This document shows, piece after piece, positions 13,404 through 31,344 of a DNA stretch of 35,378 nt; positions within the stretch are counted from its first letter, which is position 1; every line of letters begins with the position of its first letter. The position numbers and the translations under genes are program-made. Source of the stretch: Myxococcales bacterium (lineage in GTDB: Bacteria; Myxococcota_A; Polyangia; Polyangiales; Houyiibacteriaceae); assembly GCA_029862185.1 (NCBI GenBank), contig JAOTXX010000042.1, forward strand, positions 1-35,378, read 5' to 3'. The notes under the pieces are model-generated. The model was not told the origin of the DNA, did no database searches, and saw only the letters and a list, made by a program, of their open reading frames with translations.

Positions 13404-13487
13404 CGATGCCTCCTCAGCTGAAGAGAGATTAGCGTGACCTCCTCGAGATTGCGAGGCATCTTAGCGCTGGTTGGAATTGGAGGGCAT

Positions 13488-14392: not shown

Positions 14393-16483
14393 CTATTTCT
14401 CGAGGCTGCGAAGCTGGTCGTCGAAGCGCCGGACGTCTTCCTTGGCTTTTGCAAGCTCGATGAAACGTGGAAGCTCTCTGGAGTTGGCGCTCTGCCGCTC
14501 GAGCGCTGCGAGGTCGACGGGGGCGTTGGTTTCGTAGTCGCGGAGGGCGTCGAGGGCCGTCTGGAACTCGCGGGGCAGTCCGGCCAGGTCATTCGGCGCT
14601 TCACCGAACCCGAGGGCGTATCGGGCCAGCCGCGTTCTGGCGTCACTTGGGAGACTCGTCCGCGAAAGCGTTTCCCGCAGGGTTGCGAGCACGGAGCCTA
14701 GCGTGCCGGCGTCCGCAACAGAGGGGTCCTGTCCCAACTCGCGCAGCGACTGCTCGATACGCCCCTGCGCCGCGACCAATCGAAACCGGAGGTTGTTCGA
14801 CAACGGGTGCAGCGAATCGGAGCCAATGGCCTGGTCCTGCAGGATCTGCATGGCGGCGTCGATGTTGCCGAGGCGCGCTTCCACCGTGGCGCGCGGAAGG
14901 GCGTATTGAAGGTCTTCAGTTAGAAAGTCGCTCGTTTCCTGCGGTGTGAGCTGCATCAGCCAGGGCGGGCGTCCGCGATACGCGAACGCACCATCGCGGG
15001 CCATCTGAGTGTACGCGCTCTGCAGTGCGAGTAAGGTATTCTGGTCATCCGGGCTCGTCCGAAGCGCGAGGGCCCATGCGAGATCTTTGGCCGCACGCAG
15101 CTGGTCGTCACGTACACAGGTGCGTTCCGCCAGCGCTTGCGCTCCCTCGAGGTAGTCGAAGCCGCTATTTCGGAGGCCGGCGCGCGTTCGGGCGGTTCCC
15201 ACAGCATGCAACGCGAACGGGTTGTCCGAGTTCCGCGTCACCTCGTATTCCCAAAGCGAAGACGACGAGGCAAAGACTCGTGAATGAAGCGAGGTTACGA
15301 CTGCGAAACCCAAGACGACCACGGACGCGACGAGTGCGACGGTCCTCCCGAGCGATGCGCGCTCTTGGAACATCCACAGGAGCCCGCGGGCGAGAAGAGA
15401 GGCGACCCCAAGCATCGGAAGGTAGAGAAAACGGTCCGCCGTCAGGTTTCGGCTTCCGAGATCGATCAGGTTTGCCACCGGCAGCAGTGGAACGACCACC
15501 CAGAGCGCGTCGGCGAACACCGGGCGCCACGCGCGCCTGCGGTAGGCCACGATGCCCAATAACATCACCGCCCCAAGGACCAAGGTCCCCCCGAGCCACC
15601 ACGCGGCCGGCAGGACCTCACCGCGCTCGCATTCGTAGAGGCGCATCCCGGGGAAGGCGGTCGGATTCCAGGGCGAGAAGATCTGCTGCGCATACAATCC
15701 AAACGACGCCAGGGTCCTCGCTAGCGCGCCGCGGATCTGGCCGGTGGGCAGCGCAACGTCGACTACCCAAATGCGGGCGAGCAGCGCAACGACCACGGGC
15801 GCGACGAGTGCGATCGATGCCGACCGCTCGCGACGTCCCTGCAGCAAGAATCGATCGGCCAGAAGCAACGGCGCCGCGACGATTGCCGATTCCTTTGCGA
15901 ACAGCGCCAGCGCGAGCAGAATTCCAGCGAGCCAATTGCGGTTTGAATCGAAGGCGAGGGCGGCCAAGAGCACCAGCGCGCACATCCAGAGCTCGGTGCT
16001 TCCCGATATCCACGAAACCGCTTCGGCGCGGCTGGGGTGAAGCGCAAAGGCCGCGGCGCCGAGGCCGATCGCAAGCAGGCGATGGGCCTCTTCGCCGGGC
16101 GGGATGCGCCGTCTCAACCAAAAGAACGCGAGGACGCAACAAAGCAAATGAAGCGCCAGGCTGACCGCGCGGTACCCCACGGCGTGCAAACCGAAGAGTC
16201 GAAACTGAACGATGTAGGCAAACGTGACGAGCGGCCTGTACAGGTGATTGTAAGTCTCGTTGGCTTGCTCGACGTCGCTCGAAACGTTCCAGAAGTGGCT
16301 CGTCAGCGCCTCGCCGTAGCGCTCCGGATGCTGAATGTTCTCGTTCGTGCGGATGAGGCCGTTGTCATCCCAGGTGAACTCATCGCTGAGCCCCGGGATG
16401 AAAACCAAACCCGTGAGAAGAGCAAGGAGGATCGACGCTGCGCCCCACCGACGTTCCAAAGCCACCAGGCCATCGTATCTCAT
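14393..16483 (-). CDS. TMTC-like GT-C glycosyltransferase, multi-pass membrane protein
   Basis: This 696-residue protein has a first helix at about residues 15-32, followed by an acidic WDDNGLIRTNENIQ loop, the position of the catalytic acidic pair in GT-C enzymes that use lipid-linked sugars. Then come RPLVTFAYIVQFRLFG, ALHLLCCVLAFFWLRRR and AFALHPSRAEAVSWISGSTELW, a combination typical of bacterial relatives of eukaryotic TMTC O-mannosyltransferases. About ten hydrophobic helices precede a helical C-terminal region of roughly 280 residues with TPR-like spacing (ARLGNIDAAMQILQDQAI). It probably glycosylates an exported protein or lipid in the inner membrane; donor and acceptor cannot be told. 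It ends 17 bp from the convergent MscS gene. Confidence 0.8.
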   Translation of the reverse strand: MRYDGLVALERRWGAASILLALLTGLVFIPGLSDEFTWDDNGLIRTNENIQHPERYGEALTSHFWNVSSDVEQANETYNHLYRPLVTFAYIVQFRLFGLHAVGYRAVSLALHLLCCVLAFFWLRRRIPPGEEAHRLLAIGLGAAAFALHPSRAEAVSWISGSTELWMCALVLLAALAFDSNRNWLAGILLALALFAKESAIVAAPLLLADRFLLQGRRERSASIALVAPVVVALLARIWVVDVALPTGQIRGALARTLASFGLYAQQIFSPWNPTAFPGMRLYECERGEVLPAAWWLGGTLVLGAVMLLGIVAYRRRAWRPVFADALWVVVPLLPVANLIDLGSRNLTADRFLYLPMLGVASLLARGLLWMFQERASLGRTVALVASVVVLGFAVVTSLHSRVFASSSSLWEYEVTRNSDNPFALHAVGTARTRAGLRNSGFDYLEGAQALAERTCVRDDQLRAAKDLAWALALRTSPDDQNTLLALQSAYTQMARDGAFAYRGRPPWLMQLTPQETSDFLTEDLQYALPRATVEARLGNIDAAMQILQDQAIGSDSLHPLSNNLRFRLVAAQGRIEQSLRELGQDPSVADAGTLGSVLATLRETLSRTSLPSDARTRLARYALGFGEAPNDLAGLPREFQTALDALRDYETNAPVDLAALERQSANSRELPRFIELAKAKEDVRRFDDQLRSLEK

Positions 16484-18348: not shown

Positions 18349-18843
18349 TCAGGCTGATGCAGACCCAAACGGATTGGGCTTCCACATGCGGACGCCAAGC
18401 AGGAATGGAACGACCCAGTACGGCCCGTTGAAGGCCCAGAAGATGGCTGCGTTACCTGGCGGTGGCCCAATCCAGTACTCGTAGATGAAGAACTCGGTGC
18501 ATCCATGCAGCATCGCGCCCACGTAAACGAGCGCCATCGGACGGATCCAGTTCTTCCCCTTGATGAACGCGTAGACGAGCACGAGATAGAACGGCCCGTA
18601 GATCATCCCCGAGATACCGGTGTTCACCCGCACGTAGGGGTGGTCGGCGAGGAAGAAATGGTCCTGCGCAATCTCGCCGTACCAGCGGTTCGCGCGCGAC
18701 CAAAACGCATCTCCTTCGAGCAGCCCGAGCGCATGCCAAGAATCCGAGAAGAACGATGAAAACGCAAAGAACGAAAAACACAGAACGAAAAAGATGTCTT
18801 TCTTGCGTAGGCTCAGCGGGAGACCGGTACCTGATTCACTCAT
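18349..18843 (-). CDS. EXPERA-domain (EBP/TMEM97-like) membrane protein
   Basis: This 164-residue protein has four hydrophobic helices (FFVLCFSFFAFSSFF, IYGPFYLVLVYAFI, PMALVYVGAMLHGCTEFFIY, AIFWAFNGPYWVVPFLLG). It carries acidic/aromatic residues characteristic of the EXPERA fold (DSWHALGLL, MLHGCTEFFIYEYW, FNGPYWVVPFLLGVRMW). In eukaryotes this fold includes sterol delta8-delta7 isomerase EBP and the sigma-2 receptor TMEM97; both bind lipids in the membrane. In bacteria the role is largely unknown. Its start lies one base after the WS/DGAT stop, so translation is probably coupled and a lipid-related job is likely. Confidence 0.8.
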   Translation of the reverse strand: MSESGTGLPLSLRKKDIFFVLCFSFFAFSSFFSDSWHALGLLEGDAFWSRANRWYGEIAQDHFFLADHPYVRVNTGISGMIYGPFYLVLVYAFIKGKNWIRPMALVYVGAMLHGCTEFFIYEYWIGPPPGNAAIFWAFNGPYWVVPFLLGVRMWKPNPFGSASA

Positions 18844-18844
18844 C

Positions 18845-20287
18845 TCAACTCCGTGTGGGTGTTATCGTCGATTGTTCGCGACTCGAAGCGCTTGACTGCG
18901 CGGCAGCGTGAAGCTCGCGGAATTGCTCGCCGATCCCCTCGACGACGTCGTGGACGTCGGGCAAGGCATCCCAGTCCGAGTTGAAGCCCCAGAACACTTT
19001 GCCGGCGTAGCTGAGAACGGCGAGCGCGAGGGCTTGATTCGGAAAGAGCGGCATCATCGGGTAGATGGCTTGCATCTCCGAACCCAGGAAGTAAAGCGGT
19101 TTTGGGGGACCGGGGACGTTGCTGACGACGACGTTGAACGGTCGGTTTCGGGTGGCCGAGCGACTGAGCTGGGCGAAGAAGCGACCCCCGATTCGATCGG
19201 CCAGGCCCTCGAGCCAGGACACGCCGAGCGCCTGCTTGCTGTGCTTCAGCTCTTGGGTCGTCTCGACCACACGTCGTAGGCGCGCAATGGGGTCACGTTC
19301 ACCGACCGGAAGCTGGGCCATGATCATCGCGACGCGATTGCCGAGATTCTTCTCTTTGTCCTTGCGAACGTTGACCGGGATCAGTGTTCGGAAGTCGATG
19401 TCGTCGGTGGCCGTTCGGTGCTCGCGGAGATACTGACCCAGCGAACCTGCGGCGGTTGTCAGGACGACGTCGTTGATCGTCCCGCCGAGCCCTGACCGCA
19501 CGTCCTTGATCTCGCGCATCGAAATGTCGGTCCAGTCGAAACGGCGATGCGGACCGACCTGGTCCGGATTGAACGGCGTCTTGGTCGCGGCTCGCCAACC
19601 CAACTTTGAGGCCTGCATCAGGCCTTGGACGACGTCGCGGGCCTCCTGCAAAGCCTCGTTCGGCCGCCGAAGGGGCGCGAGCAGCTCAAATGGCGCTCGG
19701 ACTCGCCGAACCAGCTCGGTTGCCACGAGCTCCGCACGCTGAGGCGCCGGACGTGGCGTCCAGGGCTTTGGAGACCCGTTTCGCTCGAAGGGACGTCGGC
19801 CCAGAAGCGTCTGGAGGATGCTCATGCCCGTGACGCCATCGGCCATGCAATGATGGACCTTGGTGACCAGGGCGAACCTGTCGTTCTCGAGCCCGTCGAC
19901 AATCCAGACTTCCCAGGGCGGCTTGTCGATGTCGAGGGGCAGCTCCAGCAGGTAGCCACAGACCCGCTTCAGGACGCGATCATCGGCGGGTTGCGGCAAG
20001 GCGATTTGCCGAACGTGATAGCGGACGTTGAAGTTTTCGTCGTCTACCCAAATCGGGTGGTCGAAGAGCGGGATTTTGACGAGACGCTGGCGATAGCGGG
20101 GAACCCTTTCGAAAGACCACTCGTAGTTGTTGAGGATCTGCTCGAAATCGAGCCCGCCGTCCTCGGTGCGCAGCGGGCCTGCCTCGAAGATCATAACTGC
20201 CGCTTCATGCCAGTGCGTGTTCTTCTCCTCAAAACCGAGGAGTGAGGCGTCCAGAGCAGAAAGGCGATCGTAGAAGGTGTGCGACAT
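18845..20287 (-). CDS. Wax ester synthase/diacylglycerol acyltransferase (WS/DGAT)
   Basis: This 480-residue protein has the family's acyltransferase signature HHCMADG (H145, H146, D150, G151) in the N-terminal domain. The start LSALDASLLGFE, the segment PLDIDKPPWEVWIVDGLE, and the C-terminal FNVVVSNVPGPPKPLYFLGSEM and ALAVLSYAG are hallmark blocks of bacterial WS/DGAT. The enzyme joins acyl-CoA to fatty alcohols or diacylglycerol at the inner membrane to build wax esters or triacylglycerol for storage. The downstream EXPERA gene is one base away. An Acr1-type fatty acyl-CoA reductase about 7 kb away could supply alcohol. A Ser-rich tail ends the protein. Confidence 0.95.
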   Translation of the reverse strand: MSHTFYDRLSALDASLLGFEEKNTHWHEAAVMIFEAGPLRTEDGGLDFEQILNNYEWSFERVPRYRQRLVKIPLFDHPIWVDDENFNVRYHVRQIALPQPADDRVLKRVCGYLLELPLDIDKPPWEVWIVDGLENDRFALVTKVHHCMADGVTGMSILQTLLGRRPFERNGSPKPWTPRPAPQRAELVATELVRRVRAPFELLAPLRRPNEALQEARDVVQGLMQASKLGWRAATKTPFNPDQVGPHRRFDWTDISMREIKDVRSGLGGTINDVVLTTAAGSLGQYLREHRTATDDIDFRTLIPVNVRKDKEKNLGNRVAMIMAQLPVGERDPIARLRRVVETTQELKHSKQALGVSWLEGLADRIGGRFFAQLSRSATRNRPFNVVVSNVPGPPKPLYFLGSEMQAIYPMMPLFPNQALALAVLSYAGKVFWGFNSDWDALPDVHDVVEGIGEQFRELHAAAQSSASSREQSTITPTRS

Positions 20288-20314: not shown

Positions 20315-21535
20315 CTACCCTTGGAAGGCTTCGGTCGACAACCCTCTTTTGCGTCTCGCTCCAAGCACTTTGCGCCGAAACTCCCGGATCACGGGAATCG
20401 GGTCGAGCCAAGCCGACGCATCCGCGCGATCGTTGTCATGCTCACACAATTCTCCGGCAAAACCTTCCGGGATTTGACTGAAGTGTTCTGACGCATCGGC
20501 GTCTTCATCGAAGTAGTGATACTCGAAGCCCGGGACGAAGAGGTCTTCGTCCGCAACGACATCGATCGTGCGAACCCCGAACGAAGAGAGCTCTGTCGTG
20601 GTGGCTTGAGGCGGGATGATCCAAACGTGCTTGGGGCCTGCCACGAACAGGTACTGCACCTTTCGATTGCGCGAGAGGATGCGGAAGCGCTGGAGATTGC
20701 CACCGTACATCGCGCTTCTCAGCTCGCTGATCTCCACGATGCCCTCTGCGAAGTCCGGCTCGAAGCCGGCGACGATCTCGAGCGAGGTTGGGTCAGTCTT
20801 GCGCGTGAACCGAGCGATGCTGCGGCCGCCGTTGATGAGGTTTCGGCGATCGGCCGCGGCCTTCCGCCGTGGCTCGGTGAAATCTCGATACGGTGCGGTT
20901 CGCGAGCTCGGCGCACTTCGGAGCAGAAGGTAGAGCGCTTCCTCGTCGTTCAGGGCGTGTCGCGTCTTGCGGTTGAGCGTTTCGAGCGCGGTCTGCATCT
21001 CAAAAGGCAGATCGGTGGTCGACTCGACACACTCGGTGATTTCATAACCGCCGCGAGCCAGTACCTTGACGTCGCCTTTGCCGATCCAGAAATCACCATC
21101 GTTCGCGATCACATGCGAAGCGGCGCGCCAGATGAGGGACAGATCTTTGTAAAAGATGCGCGGAAAGATCTCCGTCCGACCCGTCTTCCGGTTACGCTGT
21201 ACGACGTACGCTACGAAGAAACGCAGTGCAGGATTCTGCCGAACGTTGGTCAGAAAGAACCGAGTGTCGAAGAGTGAAATCTCATACTTGGGCGTGTACC
21301 CCGCAGACAGGAGCCCGTTCGGATCGTCTTTCGCTTCACCTGCTGGACGCAGCTTCGCGCCCGAATCGAGGAGCTTGTGGAATTCTTTTGCGACATGGCG
21401 TGGGGTTCGATCCGCGGGAGCGACGCTCGGGACGATGCGAGTGGGAATGACTGAAGTCATGGCTGGTAGCGACGTAGCGTACTCAGGCCGCACAGACCAG
21501 GAATACCGGGCCTTGCGGTCAGCGAGCGCCCGCAT
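20315..21535 (-). CDS. Conserved-looking cytoplasmic protein of unknown function
   Basis: This 406-residue protein has no signal peptide or membrane helix. It contains mixed alpha/beta segments such as YTPKYEISLFDTRFFLTNVR, RFFVAYVVQRNRKTGRTEIFPRIFYKDLSLIWR, NLQRFRILSRNRKVQYLFVAG and PGFEYHYFDED. A basic Arg-rich tail follows. I recognise no catalytic motif. The start may be 21535 or the ATG at 21460; neither has a clear ribosome site. It lies 27 bp upstream of the WS/DGAT gene on the same strand, so a shared transcript and a lipid-storage role are possible. The divergent gap to the ceramidase gene is only 50 bp. Confidence 0.7.
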   Translation of the reverse strand: MRALADRKARYSWSVRPEYATSLPAMTSVIPTRIVPSVAPADRTPRHVAKEFHKLLDSGAKLRPAGEAKDDPNGLLSAGYTPKYEISLFDTRFFLTNVRQNPALRFFVAYVVQRNRKTGRTEIFPRIFYKDLSLIWRAASHVIANDGDFWIGKGDVKVLARGGYEITECVESTTDLPFEMQTALETLNRKTRHALNDEEALYLLLRSAPSSRTAPYRDFTEPRRKAAADRRNLINGGRSIARFTRKTDPTSLEIVAGFEPDFAEGIVEISELRSAMYGGNLQRFRILSRNRKVQYLFVAGPKHVWIIPPQATTTELSSFGVRTIDVVADEDLFVPGFEYHYFDEDADASEHFSQIPEGFAGELCEHDNDRADASAWLDPIPVIREFRRKVLGARRKRGLSTEAFQG

Positions 21536-21585: not shown

Positions 21586-23652
21586 ATGAACATGAGCTCT
21601 CCGATGTCCCGGTTCCTCGCTCACGGGCGACTCTTCGTCGCCGTCGTGGCTTCAGTTCTGACTTCTGGCTGTTCGAGCGCGGAGCAGAGTGAGCCCAACT
21701 ACCTAATCGGCAGCGCCACCGGCGACATCACGAGCCCCGTCGTCGACGTGCCCTTTTCAGGCTATGCCCTGCCCACTCATATCGCCAACGGCATTCACAC
21801 ACGATTAAGCGCGCGCGCGTTCATCATCGGTGAGTTGGATGGGACCCGGAGGCTCGTCTTCGTGACTGCCGAGCTTCTCAACACGTCACACGAGATCAGG
21901 CTCTCGGTCGTCGAGAACTTGCAGGCGAAGTACGGCGACCTCTATTCGCTCGACAACGTCGTGCTGAGCGCAACCCATACGCACTCGAGCCCTGCCGGGT
22001 ACTCCCATGACGGTACGTTCCGTCGAGCGTATTTCGATGCGGTCGTGCAGGGAATCACCGAAGCCATCGAGTCGGCGCACGAGGACTTGCAACCTGGGCG
22101 AATCCTGCTCGGTCAGCGCGAGGTCGAAGCTGCAGGCGCCAATCGCTCTGTCATCGCCTATGCGCAAAACCCGGACGCCGAGCGAGCGCGCTACCTCCAC
22201 GACACAGACAAGGAGATGACCCTTCTCAAATTCGAGAGAGAAGATGGGGTCATTGGAGCACTGAGTTGGTTCGCCGTGCACCCGACTTCGCTCACGTACA
22301 ACAACTTGCTGGTTTCGGCGGATCACAAAGGGATTGCGTCCTTCGAAATGGAGCGACGCGCTCGCACTCGAAACGACACGACCTCAGAGTTCGTTGCCGC
22401 GTTCGCACAGAGCAATTGCGGAGACGTCACCGGGAATCTCAACCTCGACAATACCGGCCCAGGCGTCGACGACTACGACAGCGCGCGGATCATCGGAGAG
22501 CGGCAACTGGACGTCGCGATGGCGCTTCTCGAGGCCGCCTCCGAGCCACTCCAGGGAGGCGTCGACTATCGGCTCGATGCCGTCGATTTCACCGATCTCG
22601 ACGTCGGCAACGGGTTCACCGGAGCCGGGCCGCAGAACACCTGCTTCCCTGCGTATGGCTATGCCTTTGCCGGCGGTTCGACCGAAGATGGCGGCGGCCA
22701 CCCATTATTCATGGAGGGGATGCTCGAGCGAGACTCCTCGATCGACGCTCTGGTCGAGCTGGTCGTCTCGCCTCCCGCAATCAGCGATGAGCTCCGCGCC
22801 TGCCATGCGCCTAAACCGATTCTGTATCCGAAGGAGCAGCAAGATCCCCTACCGGTCGGGGTCGCAAAGCTCGGACAGCTTGCAATCGTGTTCGTACCGA
22901 GCGAGGCGACCACGATGGCAGGGCGCAGGTTGCGAGACACCGTCAGAGACGTGCTGGGCGCCGAGGCCAAGTACGTAGTGATCGCCGGGTATACAAACGA
23001 CTATGCGGGTTACATCACGACCCCGGAGGAGTACGCGATTCAACAATACGAGGGCGGCCACACCCTGTTTGGGCCGTGGACCTTGCCGGCCTTTCAACAA
23101 GAGATCGATCGCCTCGCCCGAGCGCTTGCCGACGGCACGCCGGTGCGGAGCTCGGCCGACGCGGGAGACCTCCGCGGCATGGTCGAGTCCAACGCCTTGG
23201 GCAATGAGTTTGACGAACCTCCCGCAGACGGATCATTCGGGGAGATCAGCAGGCGACCCGACCCTACGTACTCGACGGGCGCGACGATGTCGGTATCATT
23301 TTGGACGGGTCACCCCGACAACGCGTTCAGCCAAGGCTCTCGACACTTCGAGGTCCAGCGGCTCGTAGCCGCCGAATGGACGACGGTCGCCACCGAAAGC
23401 GATGGGTCGACGAAGGGCACGTGGACCCAGTCGAGTCGCACGATCCCGCCCTATGACCCGCTCGATCCGTTTGCGGAGCCTCCTGCCCCGATCAACGAAG
23501 CGTTTACGGTCACCATCGACTGGCAGATTCCGGATGACGCCGTGCCGGGCACCCACCGCGTGATCTTTCACGGTAGCGAGAAACCGGAAGGCGGCGCAGA
23601 GCTCCGCACCTTCGATGCACAAAGCCCCTCCTTCGAGGTGATCGCACCATGA
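21586..23652 (+). CDS. Neutral (alkaline) ceramidase, lipoprotein
   Basis: This 688-residue protein carries a lipoprotein signal (lipobox LTSGC, C29), so it is anchored to the cell envelope. The ceramidase core shows zinc ligands in ATHTHSSPAGY (H131, H133) and AVHPTS (H232). The nucleophilic serine of the family lies in AFAQSNCGDVTGN (S276). The late metal-site block is TTPEEYAIQQYEGGHTLFGPW. A C-terminal beta-sandwich (VSFWTGHPDNAFSQGSRHFEVQ) matches the second domain of Pseudomonas ceramidase. It hydrolyses ceramide to sphingosine and fatty acid. Several in-frame ATGs lie close together at the start; 21586 is the first. It leads a four-gene unit. Confidence 0.93.
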   Translation: MNMSSPMSRFLAHGRLFVAVVASVLTSGCSSAEQSEPNYLIGSATGDITSPVVDVPFSGYALPTHIANGIHTRLSARAFIIGELDGTRRLVFVTAELLNTSHEIRLSVVENLQAKYGDLYSLDNVVLSATHTHSSPAGYSHDGTFRRAYFDAVVQGITEAIESAHEDLQPGRILLGQREVEAAGANRSVIAYAQNPDAERARYLHDTDKEMTLLKFEREDGVIGALSWFAVHPTSLTYNNLLVSADHKGIASFEMERRARTRNDTTSEFVAAFAQSNCGDVTGNLNLDNTGPGVDDYDSARIIGERQLDVAMALLEAASEPLQGGVDYRLDAVDFTDLDVGNGFTGAGPQNTCFPAYGYAFAGGSTEDGGGHPLFMEGMLERDSSIDALVELVVSPPAISDELRACHAPKPILYPKEQQDPLPVGVAKLGQLAIVFVPSEATTMAGRRLRDTVRDVLGAEAKYVVIAGYTNDYAGYITTPEEYAIQQYEGGHTLFGPWTLPAFQQEIDRLARALADGTPVRSSADAGDLRGMVESNALGNEFDEPPADGSFGEISRRPDPTYSTGATMSVSFWTGHPDNAFSQGSRHFEVQRLVAAEWTTVATESDGSTKGTWTQSSRTIPPYDPLDPFAEPPAPINEAFTVTIDWQIPDDAVPGTHRVIFHGSEKPEGGAELRTFDAQSPSFEVIAP

Positions 23653-24794
23653 ATCCGGCTCTGCTGGTCCTCCTCGCGCTGTGCCTCGTGATCACCAGCT
23701 GCAGCGGTGATGGCTGCGGCGCCGGAGGCTGCAGCGGCACCGGCGGACCGACCGACATCCGTCTAGAGGTCGAGGACTTCATCACCGGCCTACAAAAGCC
23801 GTGGGACATCGCTTGGCTGCCCAATGGGACTGTCTTGCTGACCGAGCGCCCCGGCCGCCTCAATGTTTACGTCGACGGCGTCGGCGCCGCGCCGTTCGTC
23901 GTTGCACCCGACGACGTGGTTGCGCGGGGCGAAGGCGGCATGATGGGGCTCGAGGTCGACCCGGACTTCATTAACAACGGATACGTCTACGTTTGCACCA
24001 CATCGAACGCGGGAGGCGACAACGACGTTCGATTGCTGCGCTTGACGTTGCGCACCCCCGATGGAGGCGCTGTGATTGCGCGTGAGGACATCGTGACCGG
24101 AATGCCCTACAGCACGGGGCGGCATAGTGGTTGCCGGCCGCGCTTCGGGCCCGATGGGTCGCTGTGGGTTGGCACCGGCGATGCGGCCATCGGAACGAAT
24201 CCGCAGGACGACGCGTCGCTTGGCGGCAAAGTGCTCCGTGTCGATCGCGAAGGTGCAGCTGCCACCGACAACGCCGGCGGCTTTCGATGGTATTCCAACG
24301 GGCATCGCAACATCCAAGGGATGGCATTTCGATCCGATGGCATCGGCATGTCCGCCGAGCACGGCCCGACGATCGACGACGAAATCAATCGGCTCGTGGC
24401 TGGCAATTTCGGCTGGGATCCGGTGCCAGGGTACAACGAGTCGGTGCCGATGACCGATCTCGAGAAGTTCCCAGATGCGGTACCCGCTGTCTGGTCGAGC
24501 GGCTCGCCTACGCTGGCGCTGGCGGGCGCGACGTTCCTCGAAGGCGGCGCCTGGGGCAATTGGGATGGCGCCCTTGCGGTGGCCACCTTGAAGGCCCAGC
24601 ACCTGCACATCTACTTCGTCGACGCCGAGGGCCAGGTGACGGGCGAGGAACGCGCCATCGAGAATGAGGGACGCCTCCGCACGCCCCGGCAGGGCCCAGA
24701 CGGTTTGCTCTACATCACCAACGATGGCGGGAGCGGTGATGGAAAAGTCTTGCGTGTGACACCGGTGCCCGCGCCAAGCCCTGAAGAACGGTGA
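23649..24794 (+). CDS. PQQ-dependent aldose/sorbosone-type sugar dehydrogenase, lipoprotein
   Basis: This 381-residue protein has a lipoprotein signal with lipobox ITSC (C18) and a Gly/Cys-rich linker. The six-bladed beta-propeller of the GSDH family then shows GLQKPWDIAWLPNG, LLTERPGRL, GRHSGCRPRFGPDGSLWVGTGD (likely catalytic H159), NGHRNIQGMAF, WSSGSPTLALAGATFL and PDGLLYITNDGG. Such enzymes oxidise sugars or other polyols in the periplasm with PQQ and feed electrons to the respiratory chain. The ATG overlaps the ceramidase stop as ATGA. A link to ceramidase is odd; it could act on glycolipid head groups, which is a guess. Confidence 0.9.
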   Translation: MNPALLVLLALCLVITSCSGDGCGAGGCSGTGGPTDIRLEVEDFITGLQKPWDIAWLPNGTVLLTERPGRLNVYVDGVGAAPFVVAPDDVVARGEGGMMGLEVDPDFINNGYVYVCTTSNAGGDNDVRLLRLTLRTPDGGAVIAREDIVTGMPYSTGRHSGCRPRFGPDGSLWVGTGDAAIGTNPQDDASLGGKVLRVDREGAAATDNAGGFRWYSNGHRNIQGMAFRSDGIGMSAEHGPTIDDEINRLVAGNFGWDPVPGYNESVPMTDLEKFPDAVPAVWSSGSPTLALAGATFLEGGAWGNWDGALAVATLKAQHLHIYFVDAEGQVTGEERAIENEGRLRTPRQGPDGLLYITNDGGSGDGKVLRVTPVPAPSPEER

Positions 24795-25684
24795 GCAGCG
24801 CTTACTACGCGATCGTCAATCGAGCGGCTGGCGGCGGACGGTGCGCGAAAGCCGCACCGGAGGCGCTCAATGCGTTGGAGCGTCGCGGGCTGTCGCTGGA
24901 GGTCGCGTTTACCGAGGAACCCAAGCACGCGACCGAGCTAGCAAGGCGTGCCGCCAGCAATGGTTACCGGCGGTTTCTCTCCGTGGGCGGTGATGGAACC
25001 GCCGCCGAAGTCGTCAACGGGCTCGTCGCATCCGGTGTCGTCAGCGAATGCGAGCTTGCCATGCTTCCTCTGGGCACGGGCAACTCGTTCTTGCGCGACT
25101 TCGGCATCACCGACCTGGAAGTCGCCGTCCAGGCCATAGTGCGAGGCACCAGTACGCCCGTCGACGTGCTCCGCCTGACGCATGAAGGCGGCGTGATCCA
25201 TTTCATCAACACCATGGGGACCGGTTTCGTCGCGCGCGTCGGCGAGCTCACTAATGAGCGCTTCAAATTCCTCGGTGCGGCAGGCTATGTTGTAGCAGTC
25301 CTAATTTGCGTCATGCGGCTCCGGTACGAAGAGAGCACGCTTCGCTATGCGGACGCGACCGATGAGGCGCGCACGGTGCTCAGCTCGTTCTCCAACAGCC
25401 AATACACAGGTGGTTCGATGCGGATGGCACCGGATGCCAAGGTCGACGACGGTTTGCTCGACGTCGTTCGGGCCGGCCCGCTTCGAAGGGCTGCTCTGGT
25501 CACCGCATTCGCGCGCATCTTTGCGGGAACGCACACCGATTTGAATCAAGTGTGGACGCGGCAGGTCGATCGGGTGGAATTCGTGAACCCTTCTTTTCAA
25601 GCCGTGCTCATCGACGGTGACCTCCACCACGTCAAGCCCCTTGCGATCGATGTCCTTCCGTCCGCAATCCAGCTCGTCACATGA
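24791..25684 (+). CDS. Diacylglycerol/sphingoid-type lipid kinase
   Basis: This 297-residue protein has the DAGK catalytic fold: IVNRAAGGGRC (nucleotide loop), LSVGGDGTAAEVVNGL (GGDGT at 66-70) and LPLGTGNSFLRDFG (GTGN at 95-98). The C-terminal beta domain contains FSNSQYTGGSMRMAPDAKVDDGLLDVV. Members phosphorylate diacylglycerol, ceramide or sphingosine on the cytoplasmic face of the membrane. The GTG start overlaps the preceding stop (GTGA), and the stop overlaps the next start. Following a ceramidase gene, sphingosine is an attractive substrate, but the sequence alone cannot separate it from diacylglycerol. Confidence 0.92.
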   Translation: MSSAYYAIVNRAAGGGRCAKAAPEALNALERRGLSLEVAFTEEPKHATELARRAASNGYRRFLSVGGDGTAAEVVNGLVASGVVSECELAMLPLGTGNSFLRDFGITDLEVAVQAIVRGTSTPVDVLRLTHEGGVIHFINTMGTGFVARVGELTNERFKFLGAAGYVVAVLICVMRLRYEESTLRYADATDEARTVLSSFSNSQYTGGSMRMAPDAKVDDGLLDVVRAGPLRRAALVTAFARIFAGTHTDLNQVWTRQVDRVEFVNPSFQAVLIDGDLHHVKPLAIDVLPSAIQLVT

Positions 25685-26427
25685 CGAGGACCACGACAGC
25701 TTGGGATCGAATCGTAAGCCTGTTGATCTGGTTCTTGGCAGGCGGATTTCTGGTCATCGCCCTGTCGTTTTTGACGGTCCTCTACCAGTTCGTGAAGCCG
25801 GACCGCGTTCAGCCTCTCGAGCGCCTCTACTGCAGGCTCCAACTTGCGCTCACGTTCAACAGGCAAACGCTCCATGTGCACCCCGACGTCGACTTCGGCA
25901 CTCAGTACATCTTCATTCAGAACCACAGCAGCCATCTCGACCACGTCGCGATGTACACCGCCACGCGGCATTTCAAGCAGGGCATCGAGCTCGAAAGCCA
26001 CTTCGACTACCCCTTCTACGGCTGGTTCATGAAGGCACGCGGCACCATTCCGGTGCCCAAAGATCGAGCAGGCGCACTCGACGCGCTCCGCGAGGCGGTT
26101 CGTGCCGAAGTCGATGCCGGACATTCGATCCTCGGCTTTCCAGAGGGCCACCGAACCAAGACCGGTCACGTCGGCCCGTTTCACGACGGCTTGTTTCGGA
26201 TCGCGATCGAGCTCGGCGTGCCCATCGTGCCCGTTGCGGTAACCGGTCTTTTCGAGGTGCTACACAAGGGCTCGCTCGTCATTCGCCCCGGAAACGAAAT
26301 CGCTGTCTACGTCGAAGAGCCGATCGCCACCGAAGCGCTCACCAAGGACGACATCGCAACCTTGCGAGACCGCGTGCGGAACACGATTGCGGCCAGGGTC
26401 GACGCGCATTTGTCGGCGATCGACTGA
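25681..26427 (+). CDS. PlsC-type 1-acylglycerol-3-phosphate acyltransferase family protein
   Basis: This 248-residue protein has one N-terminal membrane helix (about 11-35). The acyltransferase motifs are NHSSHLD (HX4D, H82 and D87), FYGWFMKARGTIPV, GFPEGHRTKTG (FPEG 153-156) and VPIVPVAVTGLFEV. The enzyme transfers an acyl chain to a lysophospholipid or related lipid on the inner membrane. Its ATG overlaps the kinase stop (ATGA), closing a four-gene operon. With the kinase it could remake phospholipid from diacylglycerol or acylate a sphingoid product. It converges on the DctP gene (10-bp gap). Confidence 0.92.
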   Translation: MTRTTTAWDRIVSLLIWFLAGGFLVIALSFLTVLYQFVKPDRVQPLERLYCRLQLALTFNRQTLHVHPDVDFGTQYIFIQNHSSHLDHVAMYTATRHFKQGIELESHFDYPFYGWFMKARGTIPVPKDRAGALDALREAVRAEVDAGHSILGFPEGHRTKTGHVGPFHDGLFRIAIELGVPIVPVAVTGLFEVLHKGSLVIRPGNEIAVYVEEPIATEALTKDDIATLRDRVRNTIAARVDAHLSAID

Positions 26428-26437
26428 ACCGGCCGTT

Positions 26438-27439
26438 CTATTCGGCGGCGGCCGCTTCGACCGCTTGAAGAAGGCTCTTCGGAAAGACGCGGCCCGTCAT
26501 GCGGTCCCGCACTTGGTTGGCCGCTGCGTCCCACTCGGCCTTGTACTTGCTCGTGTCGGTGGCCGTGATCCCCTTGGTGAGGACGACGTCGTAGGCCTTT
26601 TGGTCGTCGCGGCGAATCGTCTTGTTGAGCAACACCTCGACACGCTCGCAGGTCCGCAAGAACGTTTCCTTGAGGTCGGCTGGAAGCGAGTCGACCTTCT
26701 CTTTCCTCATCACCATGCCGCCCGCGATGATCGCCGAGTTGTGACTCGTCATGTACTTGACGCGCGTGTACCACTGAAGCGCAACCGCCGTGAGCGCAGA
26801 CGACGTCACCACGTCCACCATCTTGGTCTGAAGCGCCGGGTACACCTCGTTTACGCCGAGTCGAACGCCATTGGCTCCGATAGCGTCGTAGAACTCGATG
26901 AAAACCAGGTCGTCTTTCCACATCCATGGTCGCATCGACTTGATGTCCGAGGGCTTCTCAATCGGCTTCTGTGAAAACAGCCTCGTTTTTCCCGCGTCTC
27001 CCCAAGCCAACATGACGAAACCTTCGTCGTCGAACAGCTTCTCGAAGTCCCCGGCCATCTTCGTCCGCACCCGGTCCAGCTTCTCGTAGGTATCGAGGAA
27101 GTTTGGCAAGACCAGGATCACCATCGGCCGAACCAGCATGCTCATTCCGGTCATCGTGACGACGCCGCCATCGAGCTGTCCCACGCGCATCTTTCGAACG
27201 AAGTCACGCTCATCGCCCTGAGCGCCGCCGGGATAGAAACGCAGCTTCAGCCGACCGTCGGTCTCCCTTTCGAGGGTTTTCTTCCAGGCGTTGAGGACCT
27301 TCATCCACGACGAGCCGGCCGGTGCGAGAGACGCGATGCGGAAGGTGATGGCCTCTTCCGCACGGCCGCTCGGGACGCTACCTGGGAGCCCCACGAGGAC
27401 GACGGCCAGGAGCACGACAAACAAGAAATATCGGTTCAC
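26438..27439 (-). CDS. TRAP-transporter DctP-type solute-binding protein (orphan)
   Basis: This 333-residue protein has an N-terminal signal peptide (MNRYFLFVVLLAVVLVGLPG). The DctP fold is seen in FRIASLAPAGSSWMKVLNAWKKTLERETDGRLKLRFYPGGAQGDE, GQLDGGVVTMTGMS, PWMWKDDLVF and NEVYPALQTKMVD. Such proteins bind organic anions in the periplasm and deliver them to DctQM permeases. No permease genes lie in this window, so it may serve a distant transporter or a different role, such as lipid or acyl-acid binding. It lies 24 bp after the fatty acyl-CoA reductase gene and is probably the last gene of that operon. Confidence 0.9.
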   Translation of the reverse strand: MNRYFLFVVLLAVVLVGLPGSVPSGRAEEAITFRIASLAPAGSSWMKVLNAWKKTLERETDGRLKLRFYPGGAQGDERDFVRKMRVGQLDGGVVTMTGMSMLVRPMVILVLPNFLDTYEKLDRVRTKMAGDFEKLFDDEGFVMLAWGDAGKTRLFSQKPIEKPSDIKSMRPWMWKDDLVFIEFYDAIGANGVRLGVNEVYPALQTKMVDVVTSSALTAVALQWYTRVKYMTSHNSAIIAGGMVMRKEKVDSLPADLKETFLRTCERVEVLLNKTIRRDDQKAYDVVLTKGITATDTSKYKAEWDAAANQVRDRMTGRVFPKSLLQAVEAAAAE

Positions 27440-27463: not shown

Positions 27464-28408
27464 CTACTTTCGTCCAGAGCCCCTGCGCTTCGCCCTCCGG
27501 GAAACCGCTTTGAATACCCGCTGGAACATCGCCGCGTCTCGGGTCAGAGGCTCGCCCTGGTCCTTCTTGTCGCCAGATTCGGGGTAGAGTTGATAGGCGG
27601 CGTTGAGGACTCGATCGATTGCGTTGGGCGCGATGCCGTAGGCGAATTCAAAGAGATTCCCGACCGGCGTGGCCACCCGCTTGGGCTGATGGACGATGCC
27701 GTCGACGATCAGGTCGGCGGCCTGTTCGGCGCTCCGCATCGGAAAGGCGTCGTAGATGGTCGTTGATTCCATCATTGGGGTCTTGACGAGAGGCATGTAG
27801 ATCGTGGTGACCTTCACACCGTCTCTCAGTGCCTCCACGGCCAGCACTCGGCTGAACGCGTCGAGCGCCGCCTTGCTGGCGATGTACGCGCCGTATCGCG
27901 GCACGTTCACCTGAACGCCGATGGTCGACACGTTGAGGATCTGCCCCTGCTTTTGTGCGCGCATCGCCGGAAGAAAGCCCATGATCAGGCGCACCGCGCC
28001 GAGGAAGTTGAGCGCCAACGTGCGCTCGAAGTCGTGAACTCGGTCGTACGACTTCTCCACGCTTCGGCGAATCGATATGCCCGCATTGTTGACGAGAATG
28101 TCGACATGACCCTGCTCCTCGAGAACCGCCGCAATCAAACGCCGAGTGTCTTCGGCATTCGACAGGTCACCGGGGTAGACGAACGCTACACCGCCACGTT
28201 TTTCGATGGCCATCTTCATGTCCTCGAGCTTCTCAGCCGACCGGGCGATCAGAAGCACCTTGGCACCGGCATCGCCCAAGCGGTTTGCGAGCGCCTCGCC
28301 GATCCCGCTCGAGGCGCCGGTTATCACGATTGCGCGGCCGGAGACCCGCTCGCGCAGCAGACCTTCTTTGGTGCTCGCCACCTGCGAATCGTAGCCGACC
28401 GGATGCAA
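27464..28408 (-). CDS. Acr1-type fatty acyl-CoA reductase (SDR family)
   Basis: This protein of up to 314 residues has the SDR motifs TGASSGIG (30-37), NNAG (107-110), S161 and YIASK (Y175, K179). The stretch ISIRRSVEKSYDRVHDFERT, then ALNFLGAVRLIMGFLP and IYMPLVKTPMM, closely follows Acinetobacter Acr1 and the C-terminal domain of mycobacterial fatty acyl-CoA reductases. The likely reaction is reduction of long-chain acyl-CoA to fatty aldehyde, perhaps on to alcohol. The long start at 28408 is TTG; GTG at 28381 would match the Acr1 N-terminus better. A basic C-terminal tail is present. It lies between the AGPS-like and DctP genes. Confidence 0.88.
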   Translation of the reverse strand: MHPVGYDSQVASTKEGLLRERVSGRAIVITGASSGIGEALANRLGDAGAKVLLIARSAEKLEDMKMAIEKRGGVAFVYPGDLSNAEDTRRLIAAVLEEQGHVDILVNNAGISIRRSVEKSYDRVHDFERTLALNFLGAVRLIMGFLPAMRAQKQGQILNVSTIGVQVNVPRYGAYIASKAALDAFSRVLAVEALRDGVKVTTIYMPLVKTPMMESTTIYDAFPMRSAEQAADLIVDGIVHQPKRVATPVGNLFEFAYGIAPNAIDRVLNAAYQLYPESGDKKDQGEPLTRDAAMFQRVFKAVSRRAKRRGSGRK

Positions 28409-28450: not shown

Positions 28451-30166
28451 TCATGGCAGGCGGCGTTGGTCGTCCGGCAGGTCGAGCGCAAGGGTGCCGC
28501 CTGGGTTGAGCACGTTCCGGGGGTCGAAGTGACGCTTGAGCGCACGAAACACCTCGAGCTCGTTGCTACCGATCTGACCTTCGAGCCAGGGCGCGGTCAT
28601 CTTCCCGATGCCGTGGTGGTGGCTCATCGTCGCGCCGGAGGCCTGAACGGCATCGAGAATGCCGCGGTGGAACTCCAAGAACTCCTGGTGATCCATCTTT
28701 GCGATGAAGATGAAATACAGATTCGCGCCCTGCGGGTAGCAGTGTGACATGTGCGTCATGCAGACGGTTTGCGGGCGGCTCTTTACGTACGCCCGAACTT
28801 GCTCATGCACTTTCGGAAGCTGGTCCCAGCTGGTGGCGCACTCGAGGGTGTCGATGAGAATGCCGTAGTCCTGAAGGTCCTCGCGCATGTACGGATCGGC
28901 AAAGCGACCGTGCTCCCACTTCTTGGTGATGAAGCCGGTCGTGTACATCCCGCCCTGCGCATTGCAAACCTGACGGAGTCGGCGTTTGACCATCCCGGTG
29001 TAGGTTCGGTCTCCATCGACCGTGCCCAGCATCAGGCATCGCTCGCCCTTTTTGAAGCCTCGCAGGCTCACGAGCGCGTCGATCGGGGTGCCTTCGACTC
29101 CGTAGAGCTTGAAGGCGACGTCGGTTTCCTCCGGATCCGACAACCGAAAGACCGACGGAACACCAAATTCGCCCTGCATGATCTCGCGCACGGCGGCCGT
29201 TCCACTCTTCCAATTCGGAAAGATGAAGCTGAAGCGGCGCGTGTTTTCGGGCTGATAGCGAAAGACTTTCAAGGTCACCGCCACCAAAATCCCATACGCC
29301 CCTTCGCTTCCGATCATGATCTGATCGAGATTGGGTCCGGTCGAATACGCGGGGACATCGACGGTTTTGATGGTGCCAACCGGCGTGATGTACTCCTGGC
29401 TCAGAACCAGATCTTCTGCCTTGCCGTAGTACGTCGAATTCTGACCGGCGCCGCGCGTCACGACCCAGCCGCCTGCCGACGAGAACTCGAATGATTGCGG
29501 AAAATGACCGCAGGTATAGGCGTGCGGTGCATTGAAACCCTCGCGGGCACCATTGAGGGCAGCTTCAAGGTCAGGCCCGAGAATCCCGGGTTCCACCGTT
29601 ACCGTTTGATTGACTGTATTGAGGGACAGGACGCGCTTCATGTGCGTGCCGAGATGGATCGAAACCCCGGCTCTCACGCACTCGGTGCCGCGGGTCACGC
29701 TCGAGCCGGCGGCGTAGGTGTAGAGAGGGATTTCCTGCTCGTGGCAGTAGCGGACGATCTGCTCGACATCGTCGCGGTCGCGTGGGTGAAGCACCAAGTC
29801 GGGAAGATTCTCTACACTGTGGTCGCGAAGGCGAAGCGCGTCGATCATCGTCTTGCCGTACGACACACGAAGCCTCGAGTAGACATCGTCGCTCACATTC
29901 TCGTCGCCGAGCAAACCGCGGAAGTAGCTGACCTGCTCGAAACTGAGCGAAATCGAAGCGTCCGCCATCACCTCTTCAAGCCCGAGCTTTTGCGGCTTCT
30001 CGAAGTGAACGTCACCGAGTCCAAACGTCTCCTTCATCAAGGCGTAGAGCCTCGGATTCGGATGCTTGTAGGCCTCTGGCGCGCCCCACTTGAACGCCGA
30101 ACGATAAGAACGCGGTGGAAGCGCCCCCTCGAACCACTGCGGAGTGAAGGAATCCTTGTCCGTCAT
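28451..30166 (-). CDS. Alkyldihydroxyacetonephosphate synthase-like FAD enzyme (ether lipid synthesis)
   Basis: From ATG 30166 the protein has 571 residues. The FAD-binding half shows PDLVLHPRDRDDVEQIVRYC, YTYAAGSSVTRG, VTVEPGILGPDLEAAL, SFEFSSAGGWVVTRGAGQNSTYYG and MIGSEGAYGIL, with the block order of alkyl-DHAP synthase (AGPS). The cap/C-terminal half ends with SHHHGIGKMTAPWL near residue 513; AGPS enzymes carry a nearly identical SHHHGVGK motif needed for activity. AGPS exchanges the acyl chain of acyl-DHAP for a fatty alcohol, forming the ether bond. The ATG overlaps the GST stop as ATGA, which decides the start over an upstream GTG at 30205. A related COG0277 oxidase remains possible. 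Confidence 0.85.
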   Translation of the reverse strand: MTDKDSFTPQWFEGALPPRSYRSAFKWGAPEAYKHPNPRLYALMKETFGLGDVHFEKPQKLGLEEVMADASISLSFEQVSYFRGLLGDENVSDDVYSRLRVSYGKTMIDALRLRDHSVENLPDLVLHPRDRDDVEQIVRYCHEQEIPLYTYAAGSSVTRGTECVRAGVSIHLGTHMKRVLSLNTVNQTVTVEPGILGPDLEAALNGAREGFNAPHAYTCGHFPQSFEFSSAGGWVVTRGAGQNSTYYGKAEDLVLSQEYITPVGTIKTVDVPAYSTGPNLDQIMIGSEGAYGILVAVTLKVFRYQPENTRRFSFIFPNWKSGTAAVREIMQGEFGVPSVFRLSDPEETDVAFKLYGVEGTPIDALVSLRGFKKGERCLMLGTVDGDRTYTGMVKRRLRQVCNAQGGMYTTGFITKKWEHGRFADPYMREDLQDYGILIDTLECATSWDQLPKVHEQVRAYVKSRPQTVCMTHMSHCYPQGANLYFIFIAKMDHQEFLEFHRGILDAVQASGATMSHHHGIGKMTAPWLEGQIGSNELEVFRALKRHFDPRNVLNPGGTLALDLPDDQRRLP

Positions 30167-31344
30167 GCTTTGTCTCTCTTCGTCGGTGTGACCGGCATGT
30201 CCCACGGAGTGCCCATGAGCGCCAGCTTCATTCGCGCGAGCCTCGAAGGCTGGACGCGGTTGGGCCGAAGCGGCAACCGATGCTCCTCGATGAGCCCCGA
30301 ATCGAGCCCGTCGATGAGCTCGATCGAGCCGTAGGGCCGCAGCAAGTCGTCGACCGCCTTCCGATTGGCCTCGCTGAGACGCCGATACTCGTTTTGGAGC
30401 ACTTCGAGGCAGTAAACGCGGTAGTGCACGACCTTGAGATTGCGATAAGTAATGCCGTGCGCCTGGTGGTCGACCCGCGCTTCCCCCGCGGCCCAGGCGC
30501 GCGCGTTCCGCAAGAGGAAAGGCCAGTAGCTCTGCACGATGTCACGCAGGAAGTATTCCCACCCCGGTTGTGAAAAATCGCTCAGGATGGGCTCTCTTCC
30601 AAGGCGATGCGCCCGCGCGTTCCAGACCCGCCCGACCCAGGCAAACACTGCGGGCGCTCGCTCTTCCATCACGCGGCTCGGCGTAGGGTCCTGCGCGTAG
30701 TGCCGAAACATCGGCCCGAACAAACCGATGTCGACGAGCGTCGGATGACTTCCGAGCAGATAGGGCTGTTCCTCGAGCAGCTCGCTCATGGCGTCGAGCA
30801 GGTCGAGGTACTGACGCTTCACCTGCGGTTCGGTTTCGGCGCTTACTCCGTCACCGTGCAAGAAGGTCGCCATCTGCCGGCGCCCGTAGTACCAACCGGC
30901 GAGCCACTTGGGCGCCGGGAAGTCAGCGAGGACCTCGTGCCCGATGCGACGCATGAGAAGCTTGCGGGACTCGACCGGCTGCCAGCGCCAGTAGAGCGCC
31001 GCCCGCCAGCACCATTCGTCGGCGTAGTCCTCGACCAGCTTGGACATGAAGCGCAGGACGGGGTCCCGGGGGATCACCGGCGAGTCCGGATAGGCGGCCT
31101 CAAACCAGTCGATCATCGGCGTCGTGTCTTTGAGCCACTGCCCATTGGCCAGGCGGAGCACCGGCACCTTCATGAGCCCGGTCGCTGGAAGGACTTCTTC
31201 TCGCATGACCTTCATGTCCACGACCCGTCGCTCATAGGGAAGCTCCTTGTAGCGGAGGTAGGCCTCCATCTTCCCGCTGAAATACGACATGTCCGCGACG
31301 TAGGCGGTAATGGGCTCCCAGTCGGGATGTCGTGACGCAGGCAT
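30163..31344 (-). CDS. Glutathione S-transferase-like protein
   Basis: I use the ATG at 31344 because GGAGG lies just upstream; the frame extends to 31401 without such support. The 393-residue protein has an N-terminal thioredoxin-like GST domain (ITAYVADMSYFSGKMEAYLRYKELPYERR, MKVPVL with the cis-Pro, WLKDTTPMIDWFEAAYP). A helical GST C-terminal domain (YLLGSHPTLVDIGLFGPMFRHY, APAVFAWVGRVWNAR) follows. An extra helical segment of about 120 residues is longer than in ordinary GSTs. Substrate is unknown. It is the first gene of a likely operon with the AGPS-like enzyme (4-bp overlap) and the fatty acyl-CoA reductase. Confidence 0.85.
   Translation of the reverse strand: MPASRHPDWEPITAYVADMSYFSGKMEAYLRYKELPYERRVVDMKVMREEVLPATGLMKVPVLRLANGQWLKDTTPMIDWFEAAYPDSPVIPRDPVLRFMSKLVEDYADEWCWRAALYWRWQPVESRKLLMRRIGHEVLADFPAPKWLAGWYYGRRQMATFLHGDGVSAETEPQVKRQYLDLLDAMSELLEEQPYLLGSHPTLVDIGLFGPMFRHYAQDPTPSRVMEERAPAVFAWVGRVWNARAHRLGREPILSDFSQPGWEYFLRDIVQSYWPFLLRNARAWAAGEARVDHQAHGITYRNLKVVHYRVYCLEVLQNEYRRLSEANRKAVDDLLRPYGSIELIDGLDSGLIEEHRLPLRPNRVQPSRLARMKLALMGTPWDMPVTPTKRDKA

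Follow-up and report, generated by a model that had tools for sequence, protein, structure and literature searches.

The contig examined here (JAOTXX010000042.1 of a Myxococcales bacterium, assembly GCA_029862185.1) is 35,378 nucleotides long; this whole stretch, called the window below, corresponds to all of contig C136 of genome G000, an assembly of 4.29 Mb in 169 contigs with 3.45% contamination. Between positions 21586 and 26427 it contains four plus-strand open reading frames (ORFs), successively overlapping, for a neutral ceramidase, a GSDH-family dehydrogenase of the pyrroloquinoline quinone (PQQ) type (gsdh), a lipid kinase and a PlsC-type acyltransferase. This locus raises the question whether four genes so closely packed represent a lipid pathway. 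Comparison with related genomes points to a different answer, to which we assign a probability of about 0.72: the four genes would be a young, lineage-specific operon, formed by insertion of the ceramidase ahead of an older gsdh-kinase-plsC unit, and not a conserved pathway, the kinase and PlsC being the functional pair.

Organization of the operon

The initial annotation had described four overlapping genes with ATGA, GTGA and ATGA junctions, and the ORF coordinates reproduce them exactly (23649-23652, 24791-24794 and 25681-25684, 4 bp each); the assigned families (ceramidase, PQQ-type dehydrogenase, lipid kinase, PlsC-type) are supported by Pfam, NCBIfam and solved relatives, and the putative functions of the products follow from these families. 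An overlap of 4 bp is of the usual type in bacterial operons, and another ORF pair of the window shares one (13434-13437); three in succession are not due to chance, and on them stands the tight co-translation that had also been proposed. The borders of the operon are closed, with a divergent left neighbour starting at 21535 (gap of 50 bp) and a convergent right neighbour ending at 26438 (gap of 10 bp). Promoter- and terminator-like sites around the operon show no excess over the shuffled expectation; since promoter-like sites are no commoner than in shuffled sequence, the promoter was not located. Among the three junctions only the ATGA overlap of kinase and plsC is found in relatives, where it is present in 4/4 congener junctions displayed. 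The features are collected in Table 1.

Table 1. Position of the operon genes, of the segments on either side of the joint and of the bordering genes in the window
Feature	Position	Strand	Remarks
Divergent conserved hypothetical protein hyp406, 406 aa	20315..21535	-	Left border of variable slot; no Pfam match, close congener homologues
Neutral ceramidase, 688 aa, probable lipoprotein	21586..23652	+	N-terminal signal with cysteine; Thr at -3 departs from the usual lipobox; GDVTGN motif
Start codon and first 13 codons of ceramidase ORF (putative captured start)	21586..21625	+	Homologous to gsdh start in G002, G005, G010
2041-bp segment, putative insertion: ceramidase body and new gsdh start	21626..23666	+	Absent from G002, G005, G010
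GSDH-family (PQQ-type glucose/sorbosone dehydrogenase) lipoprotein, 381 aa	23649..24794	+	GSDH 234.7 bits (Pfam); signal MNPALLVLLALCLVITSC without K/R
YegS/Rv2252/BmrU-type lipid kinase, 297 aa	24791..25684	+	GTG start; GGDGT and GTGNSFLRD motifs; DGD in place of the DGE of most orthologues
PlsC-type acyltransferase, 248 aa	25681..26427	+	Acyltransferase 74.5 bits (Pfam); N-terminal hydrophobic segment; NHSSHLD and FPEGHR motifs
TRAP-type DctP solute-binding protein, lone	26438..27439	-	Convergent right border
Short-chain dehydrogenase (SDR)	27464..28408	-	Adjoins AGPS-like gene
Alkyl-dihydroxyacetonephosphate synthase (AGPS)-like flavoprotein, candidate ether-lipid enzyme	28451..30205	-	Solved-enzyme matches

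The joint between ceramidase and gsdh

The same chromosomal slot exists in three close relatives, G002, G005 and G010, but holds no ceramidase there. The DNA of G002 matches the window unbroken through position 21625 (92% identical) and resumes at 23667, so that about 2041 bp are absent; the best joint of G010 falls at the same base and that of G005, whose contig ends inside gsdh, at 21623/23668, within 2 bp. In G002 the gsdh product begins MNMTPPMSRCLAH, matching the start of the window ceramidase, MNMSSPMSRFLAH, and the gsdh N-termini of the relatives (MNMTPPMSR.., MNTTYPMSR.., MNMTSPMLR..) resemble in the same way the ceramidase start MNMSSPMSR..; the more distant gsdh of G013 (80%), which starts MEPPLRMTQGLFG.., is not assignable to either form. 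The gsdh signal of the window has no K/R residue, compared with one or two in the signals of the relatives, and looks truncated. Since the relatives share the joint and local trees nest G000 among them, the likeliest event is an insertion of the ceramidase body within the codons for the gsdh signal peptide.

The slot between hyp406 and the DctP/SDR genes is variable: gsdh stands alone in G002 and G010, kinase-plsC in G012 and G015, and plsC alone in G014, while G003 has a gsdh homologue (70%) followed by kinase and plsC. Left neighbours are different in G011, which has kinase-plsC, and also in G015 and G014. In G002 a deletion scar (L106 6160-6210) fuses the first kinase codons to the last plsC codons, leaving a short open frame after gsdh. 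This scar and the gene order of G003 indicate that gsdh-kinase-plsC is older than the arrival of the ceramidase.

According to the history that we favour, the older gsdh-kinase-plsC unit would have occupied the variable slot between the wax ester synthase/DGAT (WS/DGAT)-hyp406 genes and the DctP-SDR-AGPS genes; in the G000 lineage the ceramidase body would have entered in frame, acquiring the gsdh start and first 13 codons, and translation of gsdh would have begun again from a fresh ATG that overlaps the stop codon of the ceramidase. The four genes would now presumably be co-transcribed and co-translated. To judge from families and context, the substrate of the kinase would most likely be a glycerolipid (monoacyl- or monoalkylglycerol, or diacylglycerol), and PlsC would acylate the lysophosphatidate-type product, in a phospholipid or ether-lipid salvage together with the neighbouring AGPS and SDR.

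Insertion or deletion

The same joint could be read in the opposite direction, the four-gene operon being ancestral in the subclade and lost piecemeal, with a deletion in G002, G005 and G010 joining gsdh to the beginning of the ceramidase. Homology indeed runs on without interruption to either side of the joint, G002 possesses a second, clear deletion scar in kinase-plsC, and the neat ATGA overlap is accompanied by a Shine-Dalgarno-like GAGGTGA. The local phylogeny tells against this direction: in the trees of hyp406 (98), wsdgat (99) and gsdh (90), G000 groups with G002, and G010 and G005 fall outside this grouping, so that one insertion on the G000 branch suffices, while deletion demands two identical events, or one plus a transfer. 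Furthermore, the window gsdh signal lacks the positive charge of its relatives, and the joint is nearly devoid of microhomology (1-bp ambiguity), unlike the second joint of G002 (6 bp).

Several observations weigh against an insertion. The trees of agps and of the helicase gene join G002 with G010 (97, 98) and that of ebp joins G002 with G005 (94); since the topology differs for these more distant genes, recombination in the region is evident, and a deletion could have spread by this route. The ATGA overlap and the GAGGTGA before the gsdh start resemble an old, tuned junction, and the G+C content of the segment (0.621) is no different from that of its flanks (0.604, 0.641). Because recombination has mixed the region, we leave the deletion a small share of the probability and consider it unlikely; the insertion of the ceramidase is preferred.

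An error of assembly or binning, by which the ceramidase was wrongly joined to the contig, would also produce an arrangement that is present in no relative examined, and an assembly of this fragmentation and contamination makes it conceivable. It is very improbable, since both flanks are genus-syntenic, the joint is in frame inside signal codons, the G+C content is uniform and the ceramidase belongs to the genus type, with 66-74% identity to its congeners.

The ceramidase itself also speaks for an insertion. AGPS puts G012 nearer to G000 than G015 (95 vs 87%), as does an AOS-family enzyme described below (94 vs 90%); the ceramidase is discordant, the G012 copy being the most divergent from that of G000 (66%, vs 74% for G015), and the six congener ceramidases sit in differing neighbourhoods. 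Horizontal transfer of the ceramidase was sought by base composition and gave no signal. We tentatively suggest, as a bolder version of the insertion and one on which we would not wager, that a ceramidase of the genus-typical Thr type, differently placed in each congener, was spliced into an unrelated lipoprotein gene: an operon would thus have been born at once, promoter, start and n-region being captured in one step, with the new overlapping start saving the host gene and the ceramidase gaining a new export signal and being controlled from then on as part of an ether-lipid salvage operon.

Ceramidase linkage and the proposed sphingolipid route

The initial annotation had also proposed a route in which the ceramidase releases sphingosine, the kinase phosphorylates a lipid and the acyltransferase acylates it, in sphingolipid salvage or remodelling, and had suggested a gene-neighbourhood survey. 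Among 183 genomes of the order, G000 included, ceramidase (E<=1e-20) was found in 25, kinase (E<=1e-40) in 41 and both in 8, of which only G000 carries them on one contig. At the 25 other ceramidase loci, which cover all 24 other ceramidase-bearing genomes, GSDH, kinase, PlsC and AGPS are near in 0/25, and a single locus has an SDR match, at 30% and about 7 kb off; several loci stop at a contig edge near the gene (e.g. L024, L177, L185) and are blind on one side. Gene orders were taken from tblastn, and greedy ORF picking produces shadow ORFs in GC-rich loci. The four-gene linkage with the ceramidase is therefore not conserved among the genomes examined. Of the papers listed from the open-access literature that was searched, none pairs ceramidase with Myxococcota and none is titled for such an operon.

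Compartments differ as well: the ceramidase and gsdh products bear export or lipoprotein-type signals, while the kinase and PlsC require cytoplasmic ATP and acyl-thioesters. Moreover, the kinase is closer to DgkB and YegS than to sphingosine kinase 1, and the kinase-PlsC pair is conserved without the ceramidase, which itself appears to be inserted. The route retains some appeal, in that the four-gene operon is real, a bacterial ceramide kinase with a diacylglycerol-kinase domain exists (PMC10331486) and G000 may make sphingolipids. Indeed, a second AOS enzyme (G000:C27:62130-63389; L134 7131-8390), divergent from an adjacent acyl carrier protein gene, has as its best solved match the serine palmitoyltransferase (SPT) 3a2b (237.8 bits), although it lies below the curated cut-offs (NF047600, 313 vs 640; bioF, 314 vs 426); delta-proteobacterial SPTs group with those of Bacteroidetes, according to PMC9386255. 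This candidate is found in 31/37 genomes of the set of relatives and does not track the genus-type ceramidase (7/37); therefore, should it be an SPT, the synthesis of sphingolipids would be widespread here, independently of the ceramidase. Taken together, the route from ceramidase to acyltransferase is improbable. As the ceramidase seems to be a recent arrival, the operon provides no evidence for a sphingolipid pathway: an overlapping series of lipid-enzyme genes naturally resembles one, and this is the inference that the base-level comparison corrects, pointing to a recent accident.

The kinase-PlsC pair and its neighbours

The kinase and plsC genes are adjacent in all five genus genomes that have the kinase (G000, G003, G011, G012, G015). 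Outside the genus, 13 of 18 genomes among the 37 relatives have the kinase (E<=1e-40), and in these PlsC is adjacent in nine and about 0.7 kb away in one. An orthologue of an AMP-binding ligase is on the kinase contig in all 13, adjacent in 12 and 1.6 kb away in one, and was found in 0/19 genus genomes at E<=1e-90; the non-genus cluster also includes genes for an NAD_binding_4 reductase, PS_pyruv_trans, an enoyl-CoA hydratase and TetR. At L116, L117, L118, L120-L122 and L125 the genes seen are acyl-CoA reductase-type, polysaccharide-pyruvyl-transferase-like, enoyl-CoA hydratase, AMP ligase, kinase, PlsC and TetR, not every gene being detected at each locus. Two counts tell against a functional pair linked to ether lipids: PlsC is not near the kinase in 3/13 non-genus relatives, and AGPS (E<=1e-60) lies apart from the kinase in 5/5 non-genus kinase genomes that have it (G019, G022, G025, G028, G034).

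A more specific proposal is that kinase and PlsC make ether lipids with AGPS and SDR, as alkylglycerol kinase and alkyl-lysophosphatidate acyltransferase. The AGPS-like protein, whose activity is predicted, matches the solved alkyl-dihydroxyacetonephosphate synthase 2uuu with 222.8 bits and 4bby with 176.6 bits, ahead of glycolate oxidase types, and AGPS-SDR is near kinase-PlsC in 5/5 genus genomes with the kinase, G000 included. In P. aeruginosa, moreover, the gene of a YegS-type kinase, PA3023, lies beside an operon, PA3026-PA3024, from whose products a path to alkylglycerone phosphate has been proposed (PMC8151288). Yet many congeners have AGPS without the kinase, and in the other families AGPS is separate and the pair sits with AMP ligase, enoyl-CoA hydratase and reductase genes. 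Since AGPS and the kinase are separated in genomes from outside the genus, the ether-lipid link holds for the genus only, and as an order-wide rule it was rejected; dedicated ether-lipid synthesis is possible but doubtful. The better guess is that kinase and PlsC would be a functional pair serving glycerolipid or ether-lipid salvage. Across the order the pair keeps company with acyl-ligase genes, and in one genus it has moved next to AGPS; this makes it a concrete target for identifying the substrate on which a YegS-type kinase acts.

As regards the other genes around the slot, DctP is found in some congener slots and not in others, and no TRAP permease is present among the window genes scanned. 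The gene for an EXPERA/EBP-like small membrane protein and the WS/DGAT gene adjoin each other (together at window 18349-20287) and are kept beside the slot in several congeners. A 696-aa protein (14393-16483) has no Pfam match and close homologues in congeners.

Comparison with known enzymes

The gsdh product resembles the solved GSDH proteins 3a9g (138.3 bits) and 2ism (137.3 bits), and retains the His and R-N-x-Q positions to which we presume functional roles; it falls far under the TIGR03606 cut-off (112.6 vs 434.55). It is probably a periplasmic quinoprotein-like sugar dehydrogenase. PqqE, the sole PQQ-synthesis gene examined, reaches at best 87.6 in G000 against a cut-off of 381.35, and the control genomes are likewise all below it; scavenging of PQQ by the host is possible. 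An in-frame stop in the GSDH paralogue on C27 of G000 was also considered and set aside, since an uninterrupted 414-aa ORF is found there and the stop is taken as the natural terminator; the other paralogues are presumed to be alike.

PlsC shares HX4D and EG-R motifs with 5kym (54.2 bits), which we take to be PlsC of Thermotoga maritima, and is below the TIGR00530 cut-off (68.6 vs 102.95).

The kinase (Pfam DAGK_cat, 100.4 bits, and YegS_C, 93.7 bits) exceeds the TIGR00147 cut-off (144.3 vs 118.65), and its solved relatives are DgkB (2qv7, 71.6 bits) and YegS (2bon, 63.4 bits), with sphingosine kinase 1 at only 32. In an alignment of 35 sequences, window included (34/36 loci passed the search), GGDG, NSF, RD and a number of Asp positions never vary, so that, set against DgkB and YegS, the family has a GTGNSF..RD-type signature with NSF and RD in 35/35. 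DGE is present in 30/35 and DGD in 5/35, the window among them; the glutamate is presumably catalytic, and the Asp of DGD may substitute for it. CpgB of Caulobacter is a ceramide kinase that phosphorylates diacylglycerol too (PMC10331486), and its gene sits in a sphingolipid gene region (PMC11324152); with the window kinase, to which we liken it by description, it has in common a diacylglycerol-kinase domain.

The ceramidase matches in two domains both 2zws (367.5 bits) and human ASAH2 (4wgk, 362.5 bits), the former being, as we take it, the neutral ceramidase of Pseudomonas aeruginosa. Pfam gives 493.6 bits for Ceramidase_alk and 89 for Ceramidse_alk_C (PF04734, profile 1-509 of 509; PF17048, 2-169 of 169); the protein is under the NCBIfam equivalog cut-off (396.2 vs 1200 bits), and what is claimed is fold and family membership, that is, a predicted enzyme rather than a proven activity. 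When it is aligned with 4wgk and 2zws, the residues corresponding to human His194, His196, Arg257, His303, Glu540, Tyr579 and Tyr591 (numbered by our own count from Ser354) are all retained; His194, His303 and Glu540 are presumably zinc or pocket residues. Most likely the protein is exported, a zinc amidase that would cleave, at the cell surface or within the periplasm, ceramides of prey, of organic matter or of the cell itself. In P. aeruginosa the cerN gene is controlled by the regulator SphR, according to PMC5150637. Roles of His196, Arg257, Tyr579, Tyr591 and Ser354 are given in PMC6952831, where the neutral ceramidase motif is GDVSPN and Ser354 is described as holding Arg257 in place in the structure. 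In contrast to 2zws and 4wgk, the Ser354 position is Thr (GDVTGN) in 7/7 genus members, window included; of 18 other ceramidase loci of the order, 8 did not match the pattern used for the motif search, and the others carry Thr, Ser or Asn at this position. Because Ser354 is said to position Arg257, Thr may do the same job, and ceramidases of this type would test the need for Ser354 in the neutral ceramidase family.

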